Part shown: positions 809 to 24,053 of the stretch, one piece after another
Layout of the letters: every line of letters starts with the position of its first letter
Numbering within the stretch: the stretch's first letter is position 1
IMG/VR virus record: IMGVR_UViG_3300020463_000130
Coordinates: 1-24,053 of that record
Source of the DNA: a virus
Length of the DNA: 24,053 nucleotides
Strand: one strand, 5' to 3'
Made by a program: the position numbers and the translations under genes
Notes under the pieces: model-generated
Seen by the model: the letters and a program-made list of their open reading frames with translations, nothing else
What the model was told of the DNA's origin: nothing
Databases searched by the model: none

Positions 809-2576
809 TATGTACCTCCACATCATTCTCATATGATGTAAAGCCATTTTCCTTGACTACCTTTAGAACGTGTGTTACTCGTCCTACCAATTCGTCTTTG
901 TGTGATATCAAATATACGTTCTTAGATCTTTCTCTCCCCATCTTTTTAAGTATTGCTAAACTGTTTTCAACGCCACTAATATCCATACCTGAATCAACAA
1001 GCTCATCAATGAACAGCAGATTAATATTCTGATATAAACTCTCCCACACATCACGGAAGGCAAAACTCATACCAAGAATTAATCTGTTACGCTCACCTCT
1101 GGAAAGATTATCAAAATCAAGATCCTGCCCATACTGTGTAATTTCAACAGATAAGTCATTTATAAAAACAACTTGATGTGGCAAGCCCAGTTTGTCAAGA
1201 TAATGTGTGAGCCTGTTGTTCAGATATGCCAAGTTTTGATCAATAATTTTTTTACGTATGAAACTGTCCTTATTTGTGAGCAGTTTCAACAAGAACTCTT
1301 GATGTTCTTTCAAATCGTTGAACTGATTGATTGTTGACCAATCAATCTCTTGGATCCCTGTGTTTTTTAGTTCGTCAACTTGTTCTTGATAAGGATCTGA
1401 TTCTGTTTCAGAATTCTCAAGAGCTGTTTTAAGTTGTTGAACGTTTTGTTTGTGATCATAAACTTCTTTCAGTGTTTCGTAAAATGTTTCTGGTCTTCCG
1501 TTTATATCACCTATTTGATCTAACTGATCATTCGCTATTTTTAACTTTTCATTTATTTCACTTTGATATAATACTGCATCATCATATTCTTTTTGTTTTG
1601 TTTTTTCTATTTCTTTTTTCTTTTCTTCTTGTAAGTCTTGACCACAAGCATAACACTTTGCATCAGCAAGACCTTCAATGTCCTTTGATACTTTGTCTAC
1701 AGATTTATCTGCTCTTAGTAAAGCAGAGTCAAGAGTAGAAGTTTCTTTTCTCAAATTGGAAATTTTTGTGTTTAGTTCTTCCCAATTTTGTAATTGTTCA
1801 TGTTTTTCAATTTCTTTATCAACATCAAGGTGTTCAAGTTCGTCTATTCCTTTTTGCAGTTTGACTAAATTTTCTTTTCTAGTTGATTCCCATGCACTTT
1901 GTTTAAGTTGCAAACTGTTTATAGTTTCGCCAATTCTTTCATTACTTTGTTGTTGTGCAGTTAGCTTTGCATTTTCTTCTACTATGGCATCTTTAGTTTG
2001 TTTAATTTTTTCTTTTAAGTTTTCTGCCTTTTCAGAAAGTATTGTAATTCCTAAAAGTTGTTCAATGATATCCTTTTGATCATTTACTTTCATGCTTAAA
2101 AAAGGTTCGGTATATGTATTCAATGCAAGTATATGTTTGAACATATTATGACTCATACCTAAAAGTTCATTGATAGTTTCTTGTGTTTTCCTGCTATCAC
2201 CTTGACTTTCATCAGTGAGTTCTTGTTCTTGCTCGTTAATAAAAAACTTTAGCAAGTTAGGACCACGTCCTCTTTCAACTTTGTAATTAACATTATCTTT
2301 TTCAAATGTCAAGGTTACTAACATACCCTTGTTATTTGTTTTGTTTATAAGATTATTTCTTTTGATGTTTGTTAATGCTAGTCCATACAAAGCATAACTT
2401 AATGCATTTACAATAGTTGTTTTACCGGTACCGTTTCTAGACCCCATATCATCACCACCCTGATCTAGATTTTCACCTAGCACAAGAGTCAGCTGTTGTT
2501 TATCGAAGTCAATAGCTTGTGTTTGATTACCTACACTCATAAAGTTTTTTACTGTAAGGTTTTTAATTTTTATCAT
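801..2576 (-). CDS. gp46: Recombination endonuclease subunit gp46 (Rad50/SbcC-like ATPase)
   Basis: This 591-residue SMC-type ATPase is the T4 gp46 homologue. With gp47 it forms the phage Mre11-Rad50 complex, which resects DNA ends for recombination-dependent replication and repair and takes part in host DNA breakdown. The order of parts is complete: N-terminal Walker A with NGTGKT at residues 48-53, a long charged coiled coil, a zinc hook CYAC at 308-311, a second coiled coil, the ABC signature LSRGE around Ser492, and Walker B LLFIDE ending in Asp524-Glu525. A switch-region His follows (ISHKDE). The length is close to T4 gp46 (about 560). Its ATG overlaps the gene 47 stop in ATGA, so the two subunits are probably coupled in translation. 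All key residues are present, and I see no frameshift. Confidence 0.96.
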   Translation of the reverse strand: MIKIKNLTVKNFMSVGNQTQAIDFDKQQLTLVLGENLDQGGDDMGSRNGTGKTTIVNALSYALYGLALTNIKRNNLINKTNNKGMLVTLTFEKDNVNYKVERGRGPNLLKFFINEQEQELTDESQGDSRKTQETINELLGMSHNMFKHILALNTYTEPFLSMKVNDQKDIIEQLLGITILSEKAENLKEKIKQTKDAIVEENAKLTAQQQSNERIGETINSLQLKQSAWESTRKENLVKLQKGIDELEHLDVDKEIEKHEQLQNWEELNTKISNLRKETSTLDSALLRADKSVDKVSKDIEGLADAKCYACGQDLQEEKKKEIEKTKQKEYDDAVLYQSEINEKLKIANDQLDQIGDINGRPETFYETLKEVYDHKQNVQQLKTALENSETESDPYQEQVDELKNTGIQEIDWSTINQFNDLKEHQEFLLKLLTNKDSFIRKKIIDQNLAYLNNRLTHYLDKLGLPHQVVFINDLSVEITQYGQDLDFDNLSRGERNRLILGMSFAFRDVWESLYQNINLLFIDELVDSGMDISGVENSLAILKKMGRERSKNVYLISHKDELVGRVTHVLKVVKENGFTSYENDVEVHNE

Positions 2577-3583
2577 AGTTCGTCGTATATCCTTAACAGT
2601 AAATTCTTATCATAATTTTCAGTATCAATTGCAGTAATTTCTTTAGTTACGATTTGATCTACACTTTCAAATTGTGTTATATCAATATCTGTATTAATTT
2701 CTTCGTCTTGTTGACTAGGAATAAGTGTAATCTCTCTACAGTCATAATCGTTTACAAATGTTTCTTTTATGAAACTTGCTTCTTCATAAGAAATAGGAAG
2801 ATCTAGTGTCACTCTAAGATACATTTTGCTTTTTAACAACTTGTCTTTTTCATCTAATAGCTTAGATAACTTTATTGTTCTATATTTCGGACAATCGTCC
2901 CAGTTTATATAATGAGGTTCTTTATTATTTTCCTTATCAAGAATCATCATACCCCTATCATCATCCCATGCGTCTGCATAGTTATGAGGAAAAGCATTAC
3001 CTAAGTAATGTATTCTTCCTTGTATTTGTCGCTTATGAAAGTGTCCAGAGAATACATAGTCTTGATGCTTAAAATGTTCTGCTTTTAGTTCGCCTGTGTC
3101 AGGCATCTGTACCATAGCGTTCATATAAAAGTTTGGAAGTTCAAAGTGACCAAACATATACTTGGTTTTTATTTTAGATATCTTTTTCCATTCGTCACCG
3201 ACCAACCAAGGAATAAGTGCAACGTCATCTTCAACTAATATTTCATCAACATAAGTGATACCAGGAATGTGTTTACCAAATTCAACACTATAGACATCAC
3301 GTTTGTCTTTGTAATATAAATCGTGATTACCAGCAAAAAAATAAAATTTTTCAAATGCCTTGCCTAGTTTTTCTAAACAACGAGTTGTACTATCTAATGT
3401 CTGAACATTAATTGTATTTCTATTATGATGCCAGTCGCCACAGAAGATTCCAGTTTCACAACCGTTTTCTTTCGCCGTAGCGATAAACCAATCAACGAAT
3501 TCTTCGCAATCTTGCAAATGTATTTTACTGTTAGACTTCAATCCAAGGTGGATATCAGTAAAAACCGCCGCTTTCTTAAACAA
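2573..3583 (-). CDS. gp47: Recombination endonuclease subunit gp47 (Mre11/SbcD-like nuclease)
   Basis: This 336-residue metallophosphatase is the nuclease partner of gp46. The five phosphoesterase motifs are in order: D10-x-H12 (TDIH), GD at 49-50 followed by HH, GNHD at 85-88, GH at 145-146 and GHFH at 180-183. These residues bind the two catalytic metals of Mre11-type enzymes. The length matches T4 gp47 (about 340). The start must be TTG at 3581-3583. No ATG lies between the in-frame stop at 3602-3604 and the first catalytic motif, and an AAGG ribosome site sits eight bases upstream of this TTG. A perfect sigma70 promoter lies just ahead, with a predicted leader of only about 14 bases, so expression is probably early and by host polymerase. 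The gene heads the 47-46-small protein set. Confidence 0.95.
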   Translation of the reverse strand: MFKKAAVFTDIHLGLKSNSKIHLQDCEEFVDWFIATAKENGCETGIFCGDWHHNRNTINVQTLDSTTRCLEKLGKAFEKFYFFAGNHDLYYKDKRDVYSVEFGKHIPGITYVDEILVEDDVALIPWLVGDEWKKISKIKTKYMFGHFELPNFYMNAMVQMPDTGELKAEHFKHQDYVFSGHFHKRQIQGRIHYLGNAFPHNYADAWDDDRGMMILDKENNKEPHYINWDDCPKYRTIKLSKLLDEKDKLLKSKMYLRVTLDLPISYEEASFIKETFVNDYDCREITLIPSQQDEEINTDIDITQFESVDQIVTKEITAIDTENYDKNLLLRIYDEL

Positions 3584-3603
3584 ACTATAATCCTTCCAAG
3601 TTT

Positions 3604-3632
3604 ATTATAATATACTTCACTGAATATGTCAA
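3604..3632 (-). promoter_or_regulatory. Consensus sigma70 promoter for genes 47-46
   Basis: On the minus strand a perfect -35 box TTGACA (3632-3627), a 17-base spacer and a perfect -10 box TATAAT (3609-3604) are present. Transcription would begin near 3597, right at the ribosome site of gene 47, giving a leader of about 14 bases. The last seven spacer bases plus the -10 box (AGTATATTATAAT) are identical to the gene 55 promoter. Confidence 0.9.
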
Positions 3633-3641
3633 GTAGTTTTT

Positions 3642-4484
3642 TTACTTTTTGGTAGAAACTGTTGTTGTTTTTTCACCATGACGTTCTTTTCCTCGTTCCC
3701 ATTCTCCTTGGGCCTGTCTGGTATAACTAGGATTCATATTGTTCATTTCTAAGATATCATCTCGTATATTTTGATTTCTTTTTTCAATGTTTATTACTCT
3801 AACAAACGAATTAGTCACTGCCGCAGTATAGTATGCAAACGGATTATTTGATTTTGACTCGTCAAATTGTAAACCAATTTGTGAAAGTTGCAATATTGCT
3901 TGTCCTCTCATTTCGTCATTATATGTATATCCTCTTACATTACCACGAGTAGCATATCTATCACAAAGTTTCATCCACATCATTGCTAATTTATTTGTAG
4001 CTTGTCCATGTCCTTTGTCAAAATAACCATTTTCCATACCACCTTGCCAATGACTCTTACCAACGCATGACATTTTGTTACTTTCGTCAAATCTAAAATG
4101 TTGAAATGGTGGAAAATTTAATTTTGTTTTTGTATCTGCTACTGTTTTAGGATTTTTCTTTCTACCAGGTTCCTCAGGTATATGATCATACATCATAATT
4201 CTAAATACCAGGTCTTCTTTTTTTACTTTCCTATAATCTATTTCAAATTCTGCCAGTTTTACTCGCTTGCCTTGTGCTTTTGCCTGTTCAAATGCTTTCT
4301 GTTGTAGTCTTTTTGCCTGATTTCTCTTGGCTTCTGCAATAGTTCTGATATTAATTTTGTCAATACTTGGTAATATAATGTCATACACGGCATAATCGTT
4401 ATCGGTATAACTGCAAAAGGTGTTTTTGGACTTGGCAATTTCAGCTAATATGTCCTTATTGTTCAGATAATTTATTCTTTTCAT
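3642..4484 (-). CDS. gp55: Late-transcription sigma factor gp55 (T4-like), with N-terminal extension
   Basis: This 280-residue protein is the likely gp55 homologue, the sigma factor that directs host RNA polymerase to phage late promoters. The supporting part is a sigma region 2-like block at about 163-243, with NKLAMMWMKL, then EMRGQAILQL, FDESKSNNPFAYY and TNSFVRVINIEKR, which resembles sigma70 region 2 and the matching part of T4 gp55. T4 gp55 is only about 185 residues. Here about 110 N-terminal residues (with a basic KR-rich helix near 50-75) have no function I recognise. The C-terminus is basic (ending TVSTKK) and lacks the hydrophobic/acidic sliding-clamp-binding tail known from T4 gp55. 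The ATG has a GGAG site five bases upstream and its own consensus early promoter. It is divergent from the baseplate operon it would activate. Confidence 0.85.
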   Translation of the reverse strand: MKRINYLNNKDILAEIAKSKNTFCSYTDNDYAVYDIILPSIDKINIRTIAEAKRNQAKRLQQKAFEQAKAQGKRVKLAEFEIDYRKVKKEDLVFRIMMYDHIPEEPGRKKNPKTVADTKTKLNFPPFQHFRFDESNKMSCVGKSHWQGGMENGYFDKGHGQATNKLAMMWMKLCDRYATRGNVRGYTYNDEMRGQAILQLSQIGLQFDESKSNNPFAYYTAAVTNSFVRVINIEKRNQNIRDDILEMNNMNPSYTRQAQGEWERGKERHGEKTTTVSTKK

Positions 4485-4507
4485 GTTTTCTCCAGTTTAC
4501 ATACCAC

Positions 4508-4536
4508 ATTATAATATACTCTGATAATTTTGTCAA
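4508..4536 (-). promoter_or_regulatory. Consensus sigma70 promoter for gene 55
   Basis: On the minus strand TTGACA (4536-4531), a 17-base spacer and TATAAT (4513-4508) form a perfect match to the bacterial housekeeping promoter. The predicted start near 4501 gives a leader of about 17 bases containing GGAG (4493-4490). The -35 box ends exactly where the candidate late element of the opposite strand begins (4537), so the two promoters probably compete. Confidence 0.9.
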
Positions 4537-4543
4537 CTAAATA
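4537..4543 (+). promoter_or_regulatory. Candidate late promoter element (CTAAATA) of the baseplate operon
   Basis: CTAAATA differs at one position from ATAAATA, the core of the T4 late promoter (TATAAATA), which gp55-polymerase recognises. It lies 19 bases before the first late gene. The predicted start would fall near the AAAGGAG ribosome site (4548-4554), which makes the leader very short. This is a plausible but imperfect site; support comes mainly from its position at the head of the operon. Confidence 0.4.
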
Positions 4544-4562
4544 ACATAAAGGAGTTAACCAA

Positions 4563-5486
4563 ATGCCAGAAATTTTTTCAGGGGGCGTTCCAAAACAAGG
4601 AACCAATGGAAGTGGACAAAATGTATCTAGTGGGAACAAGCCGTCATTCTTTTCACAAGCGGTAGAAAAAGGCAAAGATATTGCACAGGATATATTTTCT
4701 GGTGCAGAAGATCTAGCAGACAAATATGTGTCTGGAATGCGTGGAAAAAATTTACCAAAAGGATTAGATGAAAAAACAGTTCCTGGAGGTACAGCAACTT
4801 GGGGATATGGTGATATTGAAGGTAAAGATTGGCGAGTATCGTTAAGTCTTCCTAGAAACGCACAATTCACTTCTTCCAAACTTCTTAATCCTTTAACGCA
4901 TACTGGTAATAGATTAGTGTTTCCGTATACACCAACCATTATACTCAGTCATACAGCAAATTATAATCAAATACAGCCTATACATAATAATTATCCCTTT
5001 TTTGCTTATCAGAATTCACAAGTGGATCAGCTTGTTATTACAGGACAATTCTATAATCAAAACTCAATTGAAGCACAATATTGGATTGCCGCTTTACACT
5101 ATCTAAGATCAGTTACAAAGATGCAATATGGATTAGGAGCCGCAGATCCTGGAGCACCTCCTCCTATTGTTAAGCTAAACGGATACGGAGATTATGTATT
5201 TAAGGACACACCTGTAATTATTACAAACTTTACAGTTGATATGCCTTCAGAAGTTGATTATATAGCAACTGGTATTGTTGGTTCGGAAGGCGAACCCAAA
5301 ATAGATTACAGTGATTTTGCGGCTCCAAAAGCAACACAAAAAGGTAACCAAATGGATATTACTTGGGCACCTGCAGAATCACAGTTTACAGTCACTTGCC
5401 AACCTATCTACAGCAGAAATAAAGTGGAGGCTTTCAATTACAGTAGTTTTGTAAATGGAGAAGGAATTAAAGGAGGATATGTATAA
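4563..5486 (+). CDS. gp48: Baseplate tail-tube cap/initiator (gp48/gp54 family)
   Basis: This 307-residue protein opens the late baseplate operon and lies directly before gene 53. The central part (about 115-235) has the features I associate with marine T4-like tail-tube cap proteins: FPYTPTIILSH, then YNQIQPIHNNYPFFAYQNS, ITGQF, AQYWIAALHYLRSVTKMQYG, and PPPIVKLNGYGDYVF. In T4, gp48 and gp54 are related proteins that sit on the central hub and start the tail tube. Only one such gene is present here, and I cannot tell from sequence alone which of the two it matches best; gp48 is the usual label in this context. The N-terminal 75 residues are Gly/Ser/Lys-rich and less typical. The ATG has AAAGGAG eight bases upstream. 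The stop overlaps the next start (TAATG). Confidence 0.7.
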   Translation: MPEIFSGGVPKQGTNGSGQNVSSGNKPSFFSQAVEKGKDIAQDIFSGAEDLADKYVSGMRGKNLPKGLDEKTVPGGTATWGYGDIEGKDWRVSLSLPRNAQFTSSKLLNPLTHTGNRLVFPYTPTIILSHTANYNQIQPIHNNYPFFAYQNSQVDQLVITGQFYNQNSIEAQYWIAALHYLRSVTKMQYGLGAADPGAPPPIVKLNGYGDYVFKDTPVIITNFTVDMPSEVDYIATGIVGSEGEPKIDYSDFAAPKATQKGNQMDITWAPAESQFTVTCQPIYSRNKVEAFNYSSFVNGEGIKGGYV

Positions 5487-12187: not shown

Positions 12188-12230
12188 ATTAACTACTAGG
12201 TTAATAAAAAATCATAAATACTCGTAGTAT
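12188..12230. repeat. Paired inverted repeats in the gp25-gp6 gap
   Basis: ATTAAC at 12188-12193 pairs with GTTAAT at 12200-12205 around a six-base loop. ATACT at 12218-12222 pairs with AGTAT at 12226-12230 around CGT. The second repeat overlaps the last bases of the late promoter element and its predicted start. Neither stem is GC-rich nor followed by T, so neither is a standard terminator. Confidence 0.45.
12213..12220 (+). promoter_or_regulatory. T4-type late promoter element (CATAAATA) for gene 6
   Basis: CATAAATA matches the T4 late -10 box TATAAATA at seven of eight positions and lies in one of the few gaps of the operon. Transcription would start near 12226, giving a leader of about 22 bases with AAAGGA (12236-12241) six bases before the gene 6 ATG. 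It fits recognition by the gp55 encoded at 3642-4484 and would boost genes 6 and 7. Confidence 0.75.
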
Positions 12231-15200: not shown

Positions 15201-15817
15201 TAAAGGCAATCAGTGATGAAGTGATTTATCATCCTGTAAAGTATAAAGTACTTTTTGGTTCTCATGCAGAGGAAAATTTACAAGCTACTTTCAAAGTTGT
15301 TAAAAATTCTGAGAATGTTATAAATGACAACGATATTAAAGTTAGGATAGTTGAAGCTATCAATAGGTATTTTTCATTACAAAATTGGGACTTTGGTGAA
15401 ACATTTCACTTTACAGAATTAGCAACATACGTTATGAATACACTTGCACCTGATTTAGTAAATATTTTAATTGTTCCTAAACAAGGAACACAAAGTTTTG
15501 GTAGTTTGTACGAGATTAAAAGCGAGAACGATGAAATTTTTGTAAGTGATGCGACAGTTACAGATGTTGAAGTCATTGACTCAGTAACTGCCTCTAGGAT
15601 ACAAGCATCTGGAACTGTTCTTACTGCATCTACACAACAGAATACTGGTATTCAAAGTCAAGCATTGACTGTTTCCTCCACATCTGCTACAACAACAACC
15701 ACTAGTTCATCTTCGTCAACATCTTCATCTACATCAAGTAGTTCAAGTAGTTCAAGCAGTGGTAGTGGTTCTTCAGGATCTGGAGGTTCTAGCGGCGGTG
15801 GAGGTTACGGTTACTAA
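12248..15817 (+). CDS. gp6: Baseplate wedge subunit gp6, enlarged, with Ser/Gly tail
   Basis: This 1,189-residue protein is the gp6 homologue, which forms the inner ring of the baseplate. The N-terminal block is diagnostic: EDWTKVYQSFRNAEFASYDFDTLRRAMINYLRNNYPEDFNDYI, then EYLALIDLIAFLGQNIAYR and RESVLRLARLLSYNP. A baseplate J-like core (about 440-460, VTGEDYNVYP) and a C-terminal dimerisation-type part (about 960-1100) follow. T4 gp6 is 660 residues, so about 500 extra residues are inserted. DLNDDGSVDDPD at 815-826 resembles an EF-hand calcium loop. The last 50 or so residues are almost only Ser, Thr and Gly, ending GGGGYGY. It starts with AAAGGA six bases upstream behind a late promoter; its stop overlaps the gene 7 ATG (TAATG). 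Confidence 0.92.
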   Translation: MSSTDRQNRLLLAEDWTKVYQSFRNAEFASYDFDTLRRAMINYLRNNYPEDFNDYIETSEYLALIDLIAFLGQNIAYRVDLNARENYLELAERRESVLRLARLLSYNPKRNQAANGLLKFESVSTTESIIDSNGTNLAEQTIVWNDPSNTNWAEQFKRVLNAALPENNTIGKPGKSTRINSVLTQTYRFQSNNTDVPVYTFSKGVNGISTVFEMVSTDINLDNSTLEEEMPLPGNNLQMIYREDGRGNGSANTGYFLHFRQGNLTTGDFEVASPQANQRINIEAENINDSDVWLFKLNTSGVVEKIWTKVPATEGNNAIYNALSKGVRDFYTVQTRGNDEITLVFADGTFGNLPSGNFRAFYRTSANRTMRINPQELTDINFTFDYLSRTGKTETMTVSVELKDTITNSSVSETSASIRNYAPQTYYTQNRMVTGEDYNVYPLTSNQEIIKVKATNRISSGISRYFDLKDVTGKYSSTNLYGSDGILYRESYEAKKTFSFATQTDIEGQIENTILPTIQSRAISNFYFSNYAKIIVSDLNATWVQSTKGTNTSTGYFTNASNVAFQVGIFTGGSLKYIEAGALLKFKPPAGFYFIGEGNLTSDATAKGASSYKWVKVISVDGAGTSVNATTGVGPIVFNETLANNSILEEVKPKLVKDLTADVRSQIIDQVFAYKTFGLRFDQVNRIWRVIINENLNINDAFSNGKTGDVTNNKLDASWILLFQTNGEKYTITNRGLRYIFESDTELSFYFDNQNKIYDSSTGQLVKDKIGIMNFNTQPDALTNFNNDIDWEIVKDFRNADGYVNSKKVEVSFFDLNDDGSVDDPDIFDNVVAPTVNSTSKYIFLKKILTDQGFSKYNYLATGSSIVVKNTETEIGAYSQYSNDPTIFYIVDQNNFKILSGGSLSLTSDYQAHIGRDNLKFQYVHSADESNRIDPSASNIIDVYMLTQSYDTQFRKYLAGTLSTMPLPPSVDNLFQQYGQNINNVKAISDEVIYHPVKYKVLFGSHAEENLQATFKVVKNSENVINDNDIKVRIVEAINRYFSLQNWDFGETFHFTELATYVMNTLAPDLVNILIVPKQGTQSFGSLYEIKSENDEIFVSDATVTDVEVIDSVTASRIQASGTVLTASTQQNTGIQSQALTVSSTSATTTTTSSSSSTSSSTSSSSSSSSSGSGSSGSGGSSGGGGYGY
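15676..15814 (+). repeat. Low-complexity Ser/Thr/Gly-coding tract at the gp6 C-terminus
   Basis: The tract uses mixed TCA/TCT/AGT/AGC serine codons and GGT/GGA/GGC glycine codons, so it is an imperfect repeat; the clearest unit is AGTTCAAGT near 15737-15760. The glycine end contains GGAGGTT (15800-15806), which can serve as ribosome site for gene 7. Length variation between relatives is likely. Confidence 0.8.
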
Positions 15818-18800
15818 TGGCACAAGACGAAAAACCAATTCCAATTAACGGTCAAGATGACAACAAACGCAGTTCATCTGATTTACTGCCTCGTTATTTC
15901 CGCAGTACTGCAAATAATAAATTTTTAAGTAGTACATTAGACCAACTTATGCAACCTGGCGTGGTTGAAAAGGTAGATGGATTTATCGGACGTAAAGACG
16001 CTAAAGCCTGGAATGCTAAAGACAATTATCTATCAGACGTTACAACTGATAGAGAAAGCTATCAATTAGAACCTGTAGCAACAATTACAGATGATATTGG
16101 AAATACCACATTATATAAAGATTATAGAGACTATTTTAATAGTGTTAGAATACGCGGTGGAGACGTTTCTAATTTAAGTAAATTAAGTAGACAAGAATAT
16201 TATGCTTGGGATCCACATATCAATTGGGATAAGTTTGTTAACTTTAGAGAATACTATTGGTTACCTATGGGTCCAGAAACTATTCCTGTATACGGAACAT
16301 CTAGGGAAATAAAAAGCACATTAAAAGTTCGCAGACAAGATAATATAGATAATGACGCATACATATTTACAGAAGACAATCCTGTAAGTAATCCTACACT
16401 AACATTATACAAAGGACAAACTTATACCTTTGATATAGATGCAGAGAATATGCCGTTCACCCTCAGAACTTCAAACAGTATTGATGATGATACAAATTTA
16501 TATTCAACAGGAGTAAGTCAACAAAGTGTTGAAAAAGGTACAATAACTTGGAAAATAGATTTAGAAGCACCTGATACTTTATATTATGTCAATTCAAACG
16601 ACATAGAAGGGTCTGGATTAATCGTTATCAAAAATATAATTGATAACACTTACCTAAATGTTGAAGAAGATATACTTGGTAGAAAAAATTACACCATGCA
16701 AAATGGCTATGAATTAGCCAATGGCATGAAAGTAGAATTTTACGGAGTAATTACACCTACAAAATACGCTACAGGAAAATGGTATGTTGAAGGTGTAGGC
16801 GACGAGATTAAACTTATTTCAGAAGACGATATAGGAATCAGTGCAAGTTATCTCGAAGATGTTACTACACAATTTGATGGCAACTCTTTTGATGCTTTAC
16901 CCTTTGACGATGCTATATCTTATGCAAACAAAAAAGACTATCTTGTAATTAATAAAGCAAGTAAAGATAGAAATCAATGGTCAAGATATAATTTATGGAC
17001 AAATAAATCTGTTATCGAAACAACTGCAAAAATTAATAATACTTCTGTAACTATTGATCAAGCATTTAGAGCCACTAGACCAATCATCGAATTTGAAGCA
17101 GGTTTAAAACTTTATAATTTTGGAACAGAAGCAAAAGCTAATGTAGACTTGATTGATACTGTTACAACTGATGTGTTTTCAGAAATTGAGGGACAAGAAG
17201 GATACTTTGTAGACGGCACACAATTAGTCACTGGTATGAGAGTTTTATTTACAGCAGATCCAGATACATTGGTTGCAGGTAAAATTTATGACGTCACATT
17301 TATTACACAAAATAATAAGACACAAATAGCTCTTAAAGAAGCAACTGATACAACACCATTGACTAATGAAACTGTGCTTGTGAAAGCAGGAACTAATTAT
17401 AAAGGTAAAATGTTTTACTATACAGGAACTGCATGGAAGCAAGGACAAGACAAAATTTCAACTAATCAGCAACCTCTGTTTGATTTATACAATGATGCAG
17501 GTACATCCTTAAATGCATTATCAGGTAGTACATTTGTTGGTACACAAATATTTTCTTATAAAACAGGGACAGGAACAGCTGATACAGAATTAGGATTTGC
17601 TTTATCATATAGAACAATAGAAAATAGCGGTGATATTACTTTTGATTTCAACTTATTAGGAGATACATATCAGTATGATGTTTCTACCACTGTTGTTACA
17701 GTAAGAACTGATACTGCTTTACTTAGAAAATATACTGGTAGGACAACATATTCCAGTGTTTCAGGTTGGACAAAAGCTCCAGAAAAATCATATCAACCAG
17801 TTGTACAGCATATTAAAACAGGTCCTAGAACAAACAATTTTATTATAGACGTTTATATTAATAGTGGAGATTTAAATGATCTTGGTGTAAAGGTATACGT
17901 TGATAGTAAAAGGAAAGTAGAAAACGTAGATTATACAATAGATAGAATCAACAAATATGCTTATGTGAGATTTTATACTGATTTAGAAGTAGATCAAAAA
18001 GTAGTTTTAGAAACAACAAGTGCAACGCCAAAGAATGCACTTGGATTTTATAAATTTCCTATAAACTTTGAAAAAAATCCTATGAACGAAAATATCACGG
18101 ATTTTACTTTAGGGGAAGTATTAGATCATGTTGATAGCATAGTAGATAATGCTCCTGGTTTTACAGGACAATTTCCTGGAAAAAGTAATTTAGGAGACTT
18201 AGGTTTAGTTTCAAAGTATGGTTTAAGATTCGTTCAACATTCTGGCCCAATCAATCTTGCACTTTTTAATCTTACTGATAAAGATTATGATTTAATAGAA
18301 TCAATTAGATTTTCAGGTAGAGAGTATATCAAATTTAAAAGAGAATTTTTAAGAGTTGCTAATGATTTAGGTTTTGAAGCAGAAGATAAACAGCATGTTG
18401 ATAAAGTCCTTTTAAGTTTGAGCGAACAAAAAACAAATCAAGATCCTTTTTATTTTAGTGACATGGTTCCTTTTGGAGGTGATACACTTTTAGATTATGA
18501 AATAGAAGACGCATCACAAACTATATTTTCTTTAACAAGAGCAGTTAGCTATACAGAACTTAATGAACATGCAGTTCTTGTATATCTTAACGAGAAGCAA
18601 CTTATTAAAGACAAAGAATATACGATTAGTACAGATGGGTTTATAACTATAACAAAACCTGTATCAGCAGGACAAAGATTAAAAATATACGAATACGAAA
18701 CAACCGACGGTTGCTGGATACCTCCTACGCCTACTAAATTAGGACTGTATCCTAAATATGAACCACAGGTATGTTTAGACGATACGTATGTCAATGCAAT

Positions 18801-21800
18801 ACCAGACTCAACAGGCCCATATAAAATTTATGGAATAGACGAAACATCAGGAAAACCTTATACTGATAAACTAGGTTGGTTTTATCCGTTGTTTACTGAT
18901 GAACAATCTGCACAGGCATATGACAAGTCTAAGGGCGGTACTGGACTAGCTCACACACATGTTTTCAAAGGGGACAACAGAATCTTCTTTATGCCAAGTG
19001 GTTCAATGAATCATGCAACATATGATACAAATAATTTTATTGTTTGGCCGTCTTCTAAGCCTGTATTACAAGGACACGATGGGTCATTATGGAGTTGCTT
19101 TGGTGATTATAGAGATTTACTTTTATTAGACTTAGAAAAAAGAATTTATAATAATTTAAAATTAGCATATGATGAAAATGTTGTTGATATTGTAGATTTT
19201 ATTGGAAGTAGATCTAGAGATACCGGATTTAATAGAGATCATATATCTTCACTTATGCAACCTGAATTCAACGATTGGTCTCAAGCTGTTGCTAATCCAG
19301 ATTATACAACCAATAGTGTATTTTCGAGAAGCAATGGTTTTAGTTATAATTATTCTTTTGCGGCTGATTATAACAATAAGAAACTATCAGGATTTTGGCG
19401 ATCAATGTATAAAGACTTATATAACACAGATAGACCGCATACACATCCTTGGGAAATACTAGGTATAAAATTAAAACCTACATGGTTTGATAGCGTATAT
19501 GGTACTGCTCCTTACACTAAAGATAATTTATTACTTTGGGAAGATATGAGTAAGGGCATTGTAAGACAACCTAATACGAAAATTACATACAGAAACAAAT
19601 TTAAAAATCCGGATATTTACAAATATATTCCAGTTGACTCCGACGGATATTTGGTTCCACCAAATATTACAGGTTATGCACTTTATTCTCCTGATGCAGA
19701 ATATCAAAATGATTTCGTCTTTGGTGATGAAGGCCCTGTAGAAACAGCATGGAGAAGAAGTTCCCATTATCCTTTCGCTTTAATCAAAGCATGGGCTTTG
19801 AGTGAACCTGCACAATTTATAGGTTTGGCATTTGATAGAAGTAGAATCAAAAGAAATGCCGCTAATCAATTAGTATACGCAGACACATCAAAGCGTATAG
19901 AATTAGATCAAATCAAATTTCCTAATAGCTCGTCTGACACGACTAGAGTAAACACAGCTGGTTTAATAAATTATATGCAAGGATACCTTGCGTCGAATGA
20001 AAGTTTAAGATTTACAGAATATCAAACTAAATTAAAATCCTTGGAAAACAAACTAGGAAGCAAGATAGGAGGCTTTACACAGAAAAGTAAATTTAAATTA
20101 ATACTTGATAGTAGAACACCAACGAATGAAGGAAACATTTTTGTTCCTGAAGAAAACTATAAAATTGTGCTTACAAAAAGTGTACCGACCAATGTATATA
20201 CCTACAGTGGAGTTATTGTTGAAAAATTAGCACGTGGATTTAAAATATCAGGATATGATAAAAGTAATCCTAAATTTAAAATATTTCCAACATTAAAAAA
20301 AGGAAACGATCCTGTTGTAAATGTAGGCGGAGTTAGTGAAGATTTTGTAAACTTTTCTTCTTCACAAACATACGCTCCGGGAGAGATTGTAAAATTTAAT
20401 AATGCTTTTTATCGTGTTAAGATTACTAATACAGGAAACTTTGTAGCAAGTAATTTTCAAAAAATGGTTGAGCTTCCAGTGGTAGGAGGTGTATCAGCAA
20501 CGTTTACAAATAATTATGAAACTGTAGCAACAACAGTCAACTATGGAACTGTTTATACAGATGTACAAGGTGTTGTTGATTTCTTATTATGTTATTCTAA
20601 ATATTTAGAAACAGTAGGTTTTACATTTGAAAAATACAACGAAACTTTAAAAGAGATTGAAAACTGGCAACTATCAGCTAAAGAATTTATGTTTTGGGCT
20701 ACACAATCCTGGGAAGCAGGAACAGTTTTAACACTAAGTCCTAGTGCTAGAGAAATTGCATTTGAAAAGAAATATAATGTAGTAGATAATATATACGATA
20801 ATTTTTATGATTACAGCTTATTACAAGCAGACGGTAAAAGATTATTGGCTGATTTTGCAACTACAGAAAGAGATAATACAAATAAGTTTGGATTAAAAGT
20901 AAAAAATACACAAGAAGGTATATATCAACTTAAACTTCCTATAGCACAAACTGAACACGCTATACTAATAGATAACCAAACGGTATTCAGTGATAAAATT
21001 TATAATAGAGCTCAAGGATACAGACAAGAACGTATTAAAGTGAAAGGTTATAGATCAAGTGATTGGAATGGTTCCCTAAATGTTCCAGGTTTTATCTTCC
21101 AAGATTCTGTCATTATGGAATGGACAGCTTGGCAGGATTATAAAATAGGAGATCTTGTAAAATACAAACAATATTACTATGTTGCAAAAAATCCTGTAAC
21201 AGGGTCTAACAAATTTGATGATAATCAGTTTGTTATATTACCTGATAAACCAAAACAGGGATTGTTACCAAACTTTGACTACAAAGCAAAGCAGTTTGGA
21301 GACTTTTATGACTTAGACAGTGATAATTTTGATACTGAACAACAAAAACTAGCACAGCATTTAATCTCATATCAAAAGAGAAAATATCTTGAAAATATTA
21401 TTCCTGACGAAGTAAGTCAATACAAATTTTTTCAAGGAATGATTCAAGATAAAGGTACAAAAAATGTCCTAAACAAATTGTTTGATAAATTAGGAAGTGC
21501 AAATAAAGATAGCTTAGAATTTTATGAGGAATGGGCTGTTAGAGCAGGTCGTTATGGTGCTACTGAAGGTGATGATGTATTTGAAGTTTTATTAGATGAG
21601 TCTAAATATAGATTAGATCCTCAACAGGTTGAATTAGTTGATAGTGTAAATCCACAGGATACTTCTTTAATTTATAAATTAGATAGAAATAGTGTCTATG
21701 TAAAATCTAAAGATTATAATCACAAACCGTTTCCAACAAAATATTTTAATGATGATAATTTTTACGTTCCTTCGGCAGGTTATGTAAATTTAACAGATGT

Positions 21801-24053
21801 TTATACAAGTATTTTAAATTATAATTTATTAATAAATGAGGATATTACTTTATTACAGCAAGGATCCTATATTTGGACAGCAAAAGATAAATCGCAACTT
21901 ACATGGGGTGTATACAAATATAAGCCTACAGATTTAAAAATAACCAGTATCACTGCAAGTAGTGCCGATGTATTCACAGTTACATTAAACAAATATTTTG
22001 CATTTGAAAAGGGCGATGTAATAGGAATAAATGATGTCGCAACAGGAACTGATGGATTCTATACTGTTAATAAAGTTGAGTTAAATGTATTATCTCTAGA
22101 TTCAGTTACAGATGTTCCAGCAACGGAAGATACTTATACAGCAAATACAGGATTTGTAACAAGATTCAAAGCAGTAAGGGTTGTAAATTTAACTGAAGCT
22201 AATAATAATATACAAAGAGATGACCAGCAACTTGAATTCACCATAGCCGGTACAAATTCACAAAGTGATACTATCTGGGTAGACGACGATGATACAGGTC
22301 AATGGGTAGTTTTAAAAAGCAAACAAGTTTTTGAACTAAAGCCAGAAATAATTAACAAAACAGCAGGCATACTAGACAGTACAGAAAAAGATTTTGGATC
22401 TAGCATCAGTGTTACTGAAAATAATAACTTTTTATCTATAACTGCACCAAAAGATCTAAACGGAACTGTTTACGTATTCACCAGACCAAGTGATAATACG
22501 GAATTTAATCAATTACAACAGATTGACGAAACACTCAATTTGTATGATTCAAATGGTGCATTTGGTACAAGTGCAGTTTTGAGTCCTGATGGAAAATATC
22601 TAGCAATAGGATCGCCTAATGCATCAAACGTCAAGTCTAAACTCAGGGGTGATTATCGTGCTTCAATAACTTATAACACAAATGACGTTGTATTTTACAG
22701 CCAGCAATTATGGAAAGCCAAGAGACAGGTTTCAGCAGAAGAAGTACAAACATTTTTCAATCATGCATCTAATCAACAAAGTAAAGGCGATGAATATAAT
22801 TCTGCATCAACACCAAGATATCCTGATGTTCCATACATAATGAGAGGAAATCCCTCAATTCCTTTAGCGGCTACAGATCACATATTGATTAGAGCAGAAA
22901 AAGAACAATACGAAGGTACAAAACCTGGCGATATTTTAACTCTGAAATGGAATAGATATACCACGTCAACACTTGCAGGAATATCACCTTTCAACGGAGA
23001 TTCAGTTTTGACTGAAGCATTAATAAACGGCCAACATACAATAGTAGGAAAAGTTGATGTTGTCTTGAAAATTATTAGTGCATTAGCTACACCAGATGTG
23101 GGAGATCAAGTTACAACCTCTACTGGTAGGGCAACCGTACAGCATAGATTTATAGATAATGACAATAACTTACAGTTATATATTAATAACATAAATGGTT
23201 CTATTGGTACAACAGGTACAATTTTATTAGGTGATATTACAGTAGGTGATTATACTAAGGAACAAAACATTACAGATAATTATCATGCAGGTTGGTGGTA
23301 TGTAAATGTTGGAACTTCTTTCAACTCAACAAATATCTATGAATACAATGCTAATCTTGTAGTGCAAAACATTACAATTCAAGGAGACTCTGTTAATAAT
23401 CCTACTTTTACAAATATTTTAGATGCAAAGCAAAACGAAGATGTAGTTACAAATCCTACTAGAGTTTCATATTTTGGAGTGTTAAGTCATGTTCAAGGAT
23501 CTACTCAAACAAACATAGTAGATTCAAGATGGGTACTTAGGTCCCCAGCAGGACACGGAGCAAGTTTACAAATAGGTAACAAATTTAGATTTTGGTTAAA
23601 CGATTTGTATGTAAATGATATTAGACAAGATCCTTCAGCAATAGGATTAGATTTCACCTACTTGAATAATACAGAGTTTACAGTCAATGATAAATGGAAT
23701 GGTTGGACAGTAGCTAGATTAACAAATTTTGATCTTAGTGGTGAACCGTTTTTGCCCACAGTAGGACAATTAGTAACAGATACAAATACAGGATCAACGG
23801 CTACAGTAGCATTTATAGAAAGATCATTTGCTACAGCAAGATTTTATTTAAAGAATAAAAGCGGGTCTTGGGCAAAAGGTAGTGATTTTGGAGAAGCAAG
23901 TAATTTAACTTTTATTGAGAATGACTCTACTGTTAGAACTGTTGGGCCTATTAATAATACACATGTAGAAGATAGTGTTTCAGGACCTTTGTTGGTTGTA
24001 GATAAAGGAGTCAATATTCCAATACCAACTACTGACTTTTTACAAGACTTAGA
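15817..24053 (+). CDS. gp7: Giant baseplate wedge protein gp7 (partial, runs off the right edge)
   Basis: The frame opens at the ATG in the gene 6 TAATG overlap and has no stop before the window ends, so more than 2,745 codons are visible. T4 gp7 is 1,032 residues. The position after gene 6 and the opening DLLPRYFRSTANNKFLSSTLDQLMQPG, with YYAWDPHINWDKFVNFREYYWLP, suggest the marine form of gp7, a peripheral wedge protein. Modules seen: a cupredoxin-like domain at about 196-272 without copper ligands; carbohydrate-binding-like motifs at about 1519-1546, 1769-1809 and 2280-2300; and FG-GAP-like repeats at about 2192-2215 and 2248-2275. Base composition and codon use match its neighbours. A fusion with another wedge or fibre protein beyond the edge cannot be excluded. 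Confidence 0.82.
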   Translation, partial: MAQDEKPIPINGQDDNKRSSSDLLPRYFRSTANNKFLSSTLDQLMQPGVVEKVDGFIGRKDAKAWNAKDNYLSDVTTDRESYQLEPVATITDDIGNTTLYKDYRDYFNSVRIRGGDVSNLSKLSRQEYYAWDPHINWDKFVNFREYYWLPMGPETIPVYGTSREIKSTLKVRRQDNIDNDAYIFTEDNPVSNPTLTLYKGQTYTFDIDAENMPFTLRTSNSIDDDTNLYSTGVSQQSVEKGTITWKIDLEAPDTLYYVNSNDIEGSGLIVIKNIIDNTYLNVEEDILGRKNYTMQNGYELANGMKVEFYGVITPTKYATGKWYVEGVGDEIKLISEDDIGISASYLEDVTTQFDGNSFDALPFDDAISYANKKDYLVINKASKDRNQWSRYNLWTNKSVIETTAKINNTSVTIDQAFRATRPIIEFEAGLKLYNFGTEAKANVDLIDTVTTDVFSEIEGQEGYFVDGTQLVTGMRVLFTADPDTLVAGKIYDVTFITQNNKTQIALKEATDTTPLTNETVLVKAGTNYKGKMFYYTGTAWKQGQDKISTNQQPLFDLYNDAGTSLNALSGSTFVGTQIFSYKTGTGTADTELGFALSYRTIENSGDITFDFNLLGDTYQYDVSTTVVTVRTDTALLRKYTGRTTYSSVSGWTKAPEKSYQPVVQHIKTGPRTNNFIIDVYINSGDLNDLGVKVYVDSKRKVENVDYTIDRINKYAYVRFYTDLEVDQKVVLETTSATPKNALGFYKFPINFEKNPMNENITDFTLGEVLDHVDSIVDNAPGFTGQFPGKSNLGDLGLVSKYGLRFVQHSGPINLALFNLTDKDYDLIESIRFSGREYIKFKREFLRVANDLGFEAEDKQHVDKVLLSLSEQKTNQDPFYFSDMVPFGGDTLLDYEIEDASQTIFSLTRAVSYTELNEHAVLVYLNEKQLIKDKEYTISTDGFITITKPVSAGQRLKIYEYETTDGCWIPPTPTKLGLYPKYEPQVCLDDTYVNAIPDSTGPYKIYGIDETSGKPYTDKLGWFYPLFTDEQSAQAYDKSKGGTGLAHTHVFKGDNRIFFMPSGSMNHATYDTNNFIVWPSSKPVLQGHDGSLWSCFGDYRDLLLLDLEKRIYNNLKLAYDENVVDIVDFIGSRSRDTGFNRDHISSLMQPEFNDWSQAVANPDYTTNSVFSRSNGFSYNYSFAADYNNKKLSGFWRSMYKDLYNTDRPHTHPWEILGIKLKPTWFDSVYGTAPYTKDNLLLWEDMSKGIVRQPNTKITYRNKFKNPDIYKYIPVDSDGYLVPPNITGYALYSPDAEYQNDFVFGDEGPVETAWRRSSHYPFALIKAWALSEPAQFIGLAFDRSRIKRNAANQLVYADTSKRIELDQIKFPNSSSDTTRVNTAGLINYMQGYLASNESLRFTEYQTKLKSLENKLGSKIGGFTQKSKFKLILDSRTPTNEGNIFVPEENYKIVLTKSVPTNVYTYSGVIVEKLARGFKISGYDKSNPKFKIFPTLKKGNDPVVNVGGVSEDFVNFSSSQTYAPGEIVKFNNAFYRVKITNTGNFVASNFQKMVELPVVGGVSATFTNNYETVATTVNYGTVYTDVQGVVDFLLCYSKYLETVGFTFEKYNETLKEIENWQLSAKEFMFWATQSWEAGTVLTLSPSAREIAFEKKYNVVDNIYDNFYDYSLLQADGKRLLADFATTERDNTNKFGLKVKNTQEGIYQLKLPIAQTEHAILIDNQTVFSDKIYNRAQGYRQERIKVKGYRSSDWNGSLNVPGFIFQDSVIMEWTAWQDYKIGDLVKYKQYYYVAKNPVTGSNKFDDNQFVILPDKPKQGLLPNFDYKAKQFGDFYDLDSDNFDTEQQKLAQHLISYQKRKYLENIIPDEVSQYKFFQGMIQDKGTKNVLNKLFDKLGSANKDSLEFYEEWAVRAGRYGATEGDDVFEVLLDESKYRLDPQQVELVDSVNPQDTSLIYKLDRNSVYVKSKDYNHKPFPTKYFNDDNFYVPSAGYVNLTDVYTSILNYNLLINEDITLLQQGSYIWTAKDKSQLTWGVYKYKPTDLKITSITASSADVFTVTLNKYFAFEKGDVIGINDVATGTDGFYTVNKVELNVLSLDSVTDVPATEDTYTANTGFVTRFKAVRVVNLTEANNNIQRDDQQLEFTIAGTNSQSDTIWVDDDDTGQWVVLKSKQVFELKPEIINKTAGILDSTEKDFGSSISVTENNNFLSITAPKDLNGTVYVFTRPSDNTEFNQLQQIDETLNLYDSNGAFGTSAVLSPDGKYLAIGSPNASNVKSKLRGDYRASITYNTNDVVFYSQQLWKAKRQVSAEEVQTFFNHASNQQSKGDEYNSASTPRYPDVPYIMRGNPSIPLAATDHILIRAEKEQYEGTKPGDILTLKWNRYTTSTLAGISPFNGDSVLTEALINGQHTIVGKVDVVLKIISALATPDVGDQVTTSTGRATVQHRFIDNDNNLQLYINNINGSIGTTGTILLGDITVGDYTKEQNITDNYHAGWWYVNVGTSFNSTNIYEYNANLVVQNITIQGDSVNNPTFTNILDAKQNEDVVTNPTRVSYFGVLSHVQGSTQTNIVDSRWVLRSPAGHGASLQIGNKFRFWLNDLYVNDIRQDPSAIGLDFTYLNNTEFTVNDKWNGWTVARLTNFDLSGEPFLPTVGQLVTDTNTGSTATVAFIERSFATARFYLKNKSGSWAKGSDFGEASNLTFIENDSTVRTVGPINNTHVEDSVSGPLLVVDKGVNIPIPTTDFLQDL

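Follow-up and report, generated by a model that had tools for sequence, protein, structure and literature searches.

The early promoter of the late sigma factor gene gp55 in a T4-like phage is interlocked with a divergent T4-type late promoter and with an 18-bp dyad element, and the anatomy of this arrangement is conserved, with fixed spacing between the dyad and the late -10. The stretch of DNA analysed, here called the window, is a virus contig of 24,053 bases representing a fragment of a T4-like phage with an incomplete genome, and the arrangement is carried by a group of large, uncultured, marine giant phages. On balance we favor a reading in which the gp55 early promoter is half of an interlocked early/late pair, a dimeric factor probably binds the dyad and gp55 is shut off; the layout points to a possible compact, DNA-based switch between the early and late phases of infection. 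The features concerned are shown in Table 1.

Table 1 Promoters, dyad elements and associated genes in the window
Feature	Position	Strand	Basis or remarks
Early sigma70-type promoter of gp55	4508..4536	-	TTGACA 4536-4531, 17-bp spacer, TATAAT 4513-4508; exact match
Early sigma70-type promoter of gp47	3604..3632	-	Exact match; spacer not conserved in relatives
T4-type late promoter -10, CTAAATA, divergent baseplate operon	4537..4543	+	Predicted start near 4549
Dyad element ATAATATACTCTGATAAT, 18 bp, at gp55	4511..4528	+	Spacer conservation, dyad centre test, 8-bp spacing to late -10
Second dyad ATTAACTACTAGGTTAAT, before gp6	12188..12205	+	More symmetric than gp55 copy
Late -10 ATAAATA before gp6 gene (12248)	12214..12220	+	8 bp after second dyad
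gp55-like late sigma factor, 280 aa, ATG start	3642..4484	-	PHROG 12791, 8e-78
gp47-like SbcD nuclease subunit, TTG start	2573..3583	-	PHROG 100, 3e-66; start context conserved
gp54-like baseplate/virion protein, first gene of divergent late operon	4563..5486	+	PHROG virion structural protein
gp6-like baseplate wedge subunit, 1189 aa	12248..15817	+	Same family as L209:5741-9253

The leftward genes of the window are gp46, gp47 and gp55, and the rightward baseplate operon contains gp54-like, gp53-like, hub, PAAR, gp25-like and gp6-like genes. The gene names are upheld by PHROG matches to a late sigma factor (8e-78) and to SbcD/gp47-like and SbcC/gp46-like proteins, and the window gp6 was assigned to its family (PHROG 10646, baseplate wedge) by its N-terminal sequence. 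The gp55 product has a sigma2 core-binding region homologous to that of T4 gp55 (7d7c_F; sequence match 9.8e-9, together with a fold match), as in the T4 gp55 family. Compared with T4 gp55 it has some 120-130 additional residues ahead of sigma2. A hydrophobic C-terminus, which in the T4 gp55 family forms the clamp-binding epitope, is not evident, the poorly conserved C-terminus ending in TTTVSTKK. The extra region follows an N-terminal helix and is confidently modelled, with no fold match of its own. The best cultured relative of this gp55 (46 % identical) occurs in PA5oct-like Pseudomonas jumbo phages, and two contigs filed under a Neomarinimicrobiota MAG (L434, 335 kb; L439, 153 kb) encode it at 73 % identity; these are probably phage contigs binned with bacteria, or may be a hint of the host. 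A TTG or GTG start of gp47 (TTGTTTAARAAAGC; position 3583 in the window) is found in nearly all relatives, which suggests selected weak initiation. An open frame of at least 2745 aa (15817-24051) begins on the last base of gp6 and runs off the record, and a SegE-like GIY-YIG homing endonuclease (167-589) adjoins the recombination genes.

Two sites on the minus strand of the window (3632-3604 and 4536-4508) match the sigma70 consensus at 12 of 12 positions with 17-bp spacers, exactly as the original prediction described, and the identical string AGTATATTATAAT is present in both. The pair exceeds chance expectation: first-order Markov sequences like the window contained a mean of 0.02 perfect sites and none of 1500 had two; the 7-base identity between the spacers has a p of about 1e-4 by composition, for a string chosen after the fact. 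Transcripts are predicted to start near 4501 for gp55 and near 3597 for gp47, giving leaders of about 14-17 nt ahead of the ATG-started gp55 (4484) and the TTG-started gp47 (3583). Both sites have the hexamers and the 16-18 bp spacing of bacterial sigma70 promoters, lie upstream of a gene and are kept in relatives, and they are almost certainly real early sigma70-type promoters. Two perfect sigma70 promoters elsewhere (G005:2602-2630 and G008:82369-82397) contain a CTAAATA late motif within the spacer on the same strand, and are possible tandem early/late promoters.

Exact matches to TTGACA-N10-AGTATATTATAAT were obtained in at least 119 viral contig stretches, most by far lying upstream of gp55 orthologs, where the match extends to TATTTA(G)TTGACA. 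The upstream regions of 157 gp55 orthologs gave 107 distinct sequences, which share a conserved, sharply bounded 37-bp block that begins with TATTTAG and ends with TATAATA, the flanks falling to about 0.3 bit; TTGAC[A/T]-N17-TATAAT is present in 97. The 17 spacer bases of the gp55 promoter average 1.2 bit/base, against 0.35 bit/base for the gp47 spacer in the same genomes, so that the proposal of an additional conserved element in the spacer half holds at gp55 and fails at gp47. The hexamers and spacing of the gp47 promoter do persist in relatives, partly by construction since gp47 sites were picked by hexamer score. With the gp47 spacer free to vary, and AGTGTAA at its end in the closest relative (95 % gp55 identity), the string common to both window promoters is largely coincidence, a property of gp55 with a chance resemblance at gp47. 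Within the gp55 block, the three bases after TTGAC are AAA or TTT in 104 of the 107 distinct sequences, with almost no intermediates, and the three bases preceding TATAAT are TAT or GTT in 105.

The early-promoter family sharing an AGTATAT spacer, as originally envisaged, was not recovered. The two sites already described are the sole perfect TTGACA-N17-TATAAT sites in the 24,053-base record, and a genome-wide family was rejected on ten long relatives of 73-236 kb, which have only 1-8 TTGAC-N18-TATAAT sites per genome and in which GTATATTATAAT is confined to gp55. The accompanying idea of strong promoters that compete for host polymerase overlooks what matters most here, the overlap of the gp55 promoter with a divergent late promoter and a dyad.

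The minus-strand TATTTAG of the conserved block reads CTAAATA on the opposite strand, about 20 nt before a baseplate gene. In the window and six long relatives (genes of the long relatives were called by a simple script), the top 7-mer found de novo before genes was ATAAATA (86 versus 3.3 expected), CTAAATA was also enriched (28 versus 4.6 expected), and the positions of both peak 15-30 nt ahead of gene starts; an ATAAATA-like -10 thus recurs within a fixed range before late genes, as in T4-type late promoters. TATTTAG adjoins TTGAC in 100 of the 107 distinct gp55 upstreams, and in four others the junction is one base shorter and yields ATAAATA, still a late motif, so that the early gp55 -35 abuts, or overlaps by one base, the divergent late -10. 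The predicted early start (about 4501) and late start (about 4549, placed by T4 numbering) diverge from points 48 bp apart, a spacing at which two polymerases would not be expected to be bound together, given an overlap of predicted footprints that is based on E. coli polymerase sizes. In every distant phage examined, the homolog of the gp54-like gene and gp55 point away from each other, and the order of gp55 divergent from gp54-like and gp53-like genes is kept in PA5oct, Atu_ph07, Vibrio 2.275, Munch, CBB, SCTP-2 and several metagenomic lineages; Phosso and Atu_ph07 have an additional gene adjoining gp55. Another divergent region with a fused TATTTAG-TTGAC (G004:88903-88948) has a different gene pair.

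In early-promoter coordinates the gp55 dyad (4511-4528) runs from -27 to -10, and in those of the late promoter from about -38 to -21, with its centre at about -29.5. A motif built from the gp55 spacer finds other, mostly intergenic sites that have no TTGACA, and these are dyads, roughly ATTAANTRCGYANTTAAT. Of all dyad centres tried, positions 16/17 after the TTGAC start gave the best mean complementarity in gp55 spacers, with values of 0.94-0.98 at two outer pairs and imperfect inner pairs, the window copy being among the less symmetric ones. In seven records of the clade, 14 of 25 upstream matches are found precisely 8 bp ahead of [AC]TAAATA, and gp55 accounts for about half of these 14. Across all loci fetched, with the gp55 locus excluded and offset 1 set aside, offset 8 has 61 sites versus a mean of 0.41 at other offsets, although the 61 are not independent and the offset-7/8 set is dominated by 47 orthologous gp6 promoters. 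The 13 sites at offset 1 belong to gp55 and are read toward that gene, some phages having ATAAATA right after the -10. Other genes behind dyad sites encode the baseplate hub, a gp54-like protein and a 767-aa protein, with the tail tube in long genomes. The motif was trained on gp55 sites, and the independence of the result comes from the offset spacing holding at other genes. Intergenic dyads outside gp55 numbered 26 versus 2.1 in shuffles (maximum 5), and the ratio of genic to intergenic dyads was 12/34 versus 20/6 in the reversed control.

The dyad is a property of a subset of late promoters. The average late promoter has no upstream element, which excludes the dyad as an element of all of them, and when late motifs were tested for palindromes without regard to sequence, offset 8 did not stand out as a peak: only a minority of late promoters have the dyad, and the arms of the dyad are imperfect. 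The lack of an upstream sequence element that marks T4 late promoters is true of the average and not of the dyad-bearing subset, which is therefore classed as a variant T4-type late promoter. A 115-aa early gene (L202:17412-17759) was considered as having a second dyad-controlled early promoter and was rejected, its dyad not being conserved in relatives, and, judged by eye, the dyad did not match a CtrA-type site. No published description of a dyad element in such late promoters was found in a limited literature search, which is weak evidence of novelty.

A set of 57 gp55-divergent regions from outside the motif building, many of them from one clade, was scored for the best 18-mer of 40 possible offsets, and this lay 7 bp upstream of the late motif in 44 and 8 bp upstream in four. 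The position agreed elsewhere in Phosso (score 6.8), Atu_ph07 (14.3) and a MAG-derived clade (7-13), and also, with poor scores, in PA5oct and Vibrio 2.275; CBB and Munch have no dyad 7-8 bp upstream in the gp55-divergent region. Scanning eight named phages for the exact N8 and N7 patterns added no convincing sites; the matches in Phosso and Atu_ph07 precede unnamed genes or fall at their edge. In several distant lineages the early promoter is placed elsewhere relative to the late one, so the dyad travels with the late promoter, and it is in the clade of the window that the early promoter has been built into the late one.

In the proposed switch, host sigma70 polymerase would early in infection read TTGACA-N17-TATAAT leftward into the late sigma gene gp55, and gp47 would be transcribed from its own promoter. 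Later, gp55-polymerase would read the abutting CTAAATA rightward into the baseplate operon, and the overlapping predicted footprints would allow one promoter to be occupied at a time. A putative dimeric DNA-binding factor probably binds the dyad and aids late initiation of tail and baseplate genes and, by occupying the early promoter from -27 to -10, would together with polymerase competition turn gp55 off. We infer the binding of the dyad by a protein, activation, repression, their timing and the direction of regulation. A broader form of the proposal, in which uncultured T4-like jumbo phages have a bipartite class of late promoters (an 18-bp dyad 7-8 bp before ATAAATA) served by an undescribed dimeric phage factor and gp55, with the single site at the gp55 locus also repressing the early gp55 promoter as negative feedback, is a serious possibility that falls somewhat short of being probable.

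A 95-aa protein (L200:8084-8371), present in PA5oct-like, Agrobacterium, Sinorhizobium and Salicola phages, was considered as a candidate dyad factor and is kept as a lead only: the dyad-like letters upstream of its gene partly form an RNA hairpin, and its model (pLDDT 77) matched no known fold. The leader hairpin, about 45 nt before the gene (L458-L537; orthologs of L200:8084-8371), takes forms such as ATATGCGTA...AAAGGA...TACGCATATG; its loop contains the ribosome site, and the start codon falls at the 3' arm. Its arms covary (ATATACGTA/TACGTATAT, ATATGTGTA/TACACATAT), and it is found in most of 80 relatives.

Three other explanations were weighed against this switch. Polymerase competition alone, with overlapping promoters mutually exclusive, no extra factor and the spacer kept for promoter strength, agrees with the overlap of the predicted footprints, has a precedent in the competition demonstrated at bidirectional E. 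coli promoters (PMC12825309) and fits the closeness of early and late promoters in several lineages despite their differing geometry. It leaves the same dyad, at 7-8 bp spacing, at the gp6, hub and tail-tube promoters unexplained, and we consider it rather unlikely. Less likely again are two ordinary strong early promoters whose spacer likeness reflects coincidence or an AT-rich preference of sigma70, with the late promoter merely near. The perfect consensus of both sites agrees with such a pair, as do the AT-tracts at -17 to -23 that stimulate some sigma70 promoters (PMC7229825) and the occurrence of GAGTATATAAT also at an early gene of unknown function, but the conservation of the gp55 spacer is base-specific, unlike that of gp47 in the same genomes, and the dyad keeps a fixed distance from the late -10 where a sigma70 promoter is absent.

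It is very improbable that the dyad is an RNA element of upstream transcripts, such as a 3'-end or processing hairpin, rather than a DNA site. The gp6 dyad does sit just after the upstream gene, and a conserved leader hairpin of similar sequence does occur at a different gene in these phages; the gp55 dyad, however, lies between divergent starts and in neither predicted transcript, with its spacing to the late -10 unchanged.

The switch with a dyad-bound factor may work like those of phi29 A2/A3 or SoxR. In phi29, p4 together with p6 acts as repressor of the early A2b/A2c and as activator of the late A3 (PMC10899789), and the arrangement proposed here, with the dyad as candidate shared site, would similarly have one factor repressing the early and activating the late promoter; phi29 uses p4/p6, whereas the late promoter here would be read by a phage sigma, and the early target would be the gene of that sigma. 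At PsoxS/soxR, a dimeric factor sits between promoter elements, where it activates transcription on one side and hides the start of the divergent one (PMC12825309), but that system is bacterial and of the MerR family, and the factor here is only putative. The T4 late promoters are simple and have no -35 region (PMC2988020, Geiduschek and Kassavetis review, and work cited there). The window shares with them an ATAAATA-type -10, a late sigma with sigma2 homology to 7d7c_F and late virion genes downstream; it differs in that a subset of promoters carries the 18-bp dyad near -29.5 where T4 has no -35 element. In T4 middle promoters the MotA box is positioned near -30, which places this additional element roughly as far from the start as the dyad here. 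The box (TGCTTtA; PMC9004378) is not a dyad and works with a sigma70 -10, whereas the -10 here is late; the window element did not have the character of a MotA-dependent middle promoter, being ATTAANTRCGYANTTAAT-like and paired with ATAAATA. In CBB and GAP32, an ATAAATA late motif precedes structural genes and an RpoD-like promoter precedes gp55 (PMC5259590), as here, but CBB has a TGAAACG-type -35 at its gp55 promoter, and neither CBB nor Munch has the 7-8 bp dyad.

T4 provides the classic example of late promoters pared down to a -10 element alone. A fixed-distance dyad in distant jumbo lineages would imply an extra regulator and a distinct class of tail and baseplate late genes, and the overlap of the dyad with the early promoter offers a concrete and testable way in which widespread marine phages may end early gp55 expression. 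Cultured Agrobacterium and Sinorhizobium phages with the same element at the gp55 locus make the proposed mechanism accessible.
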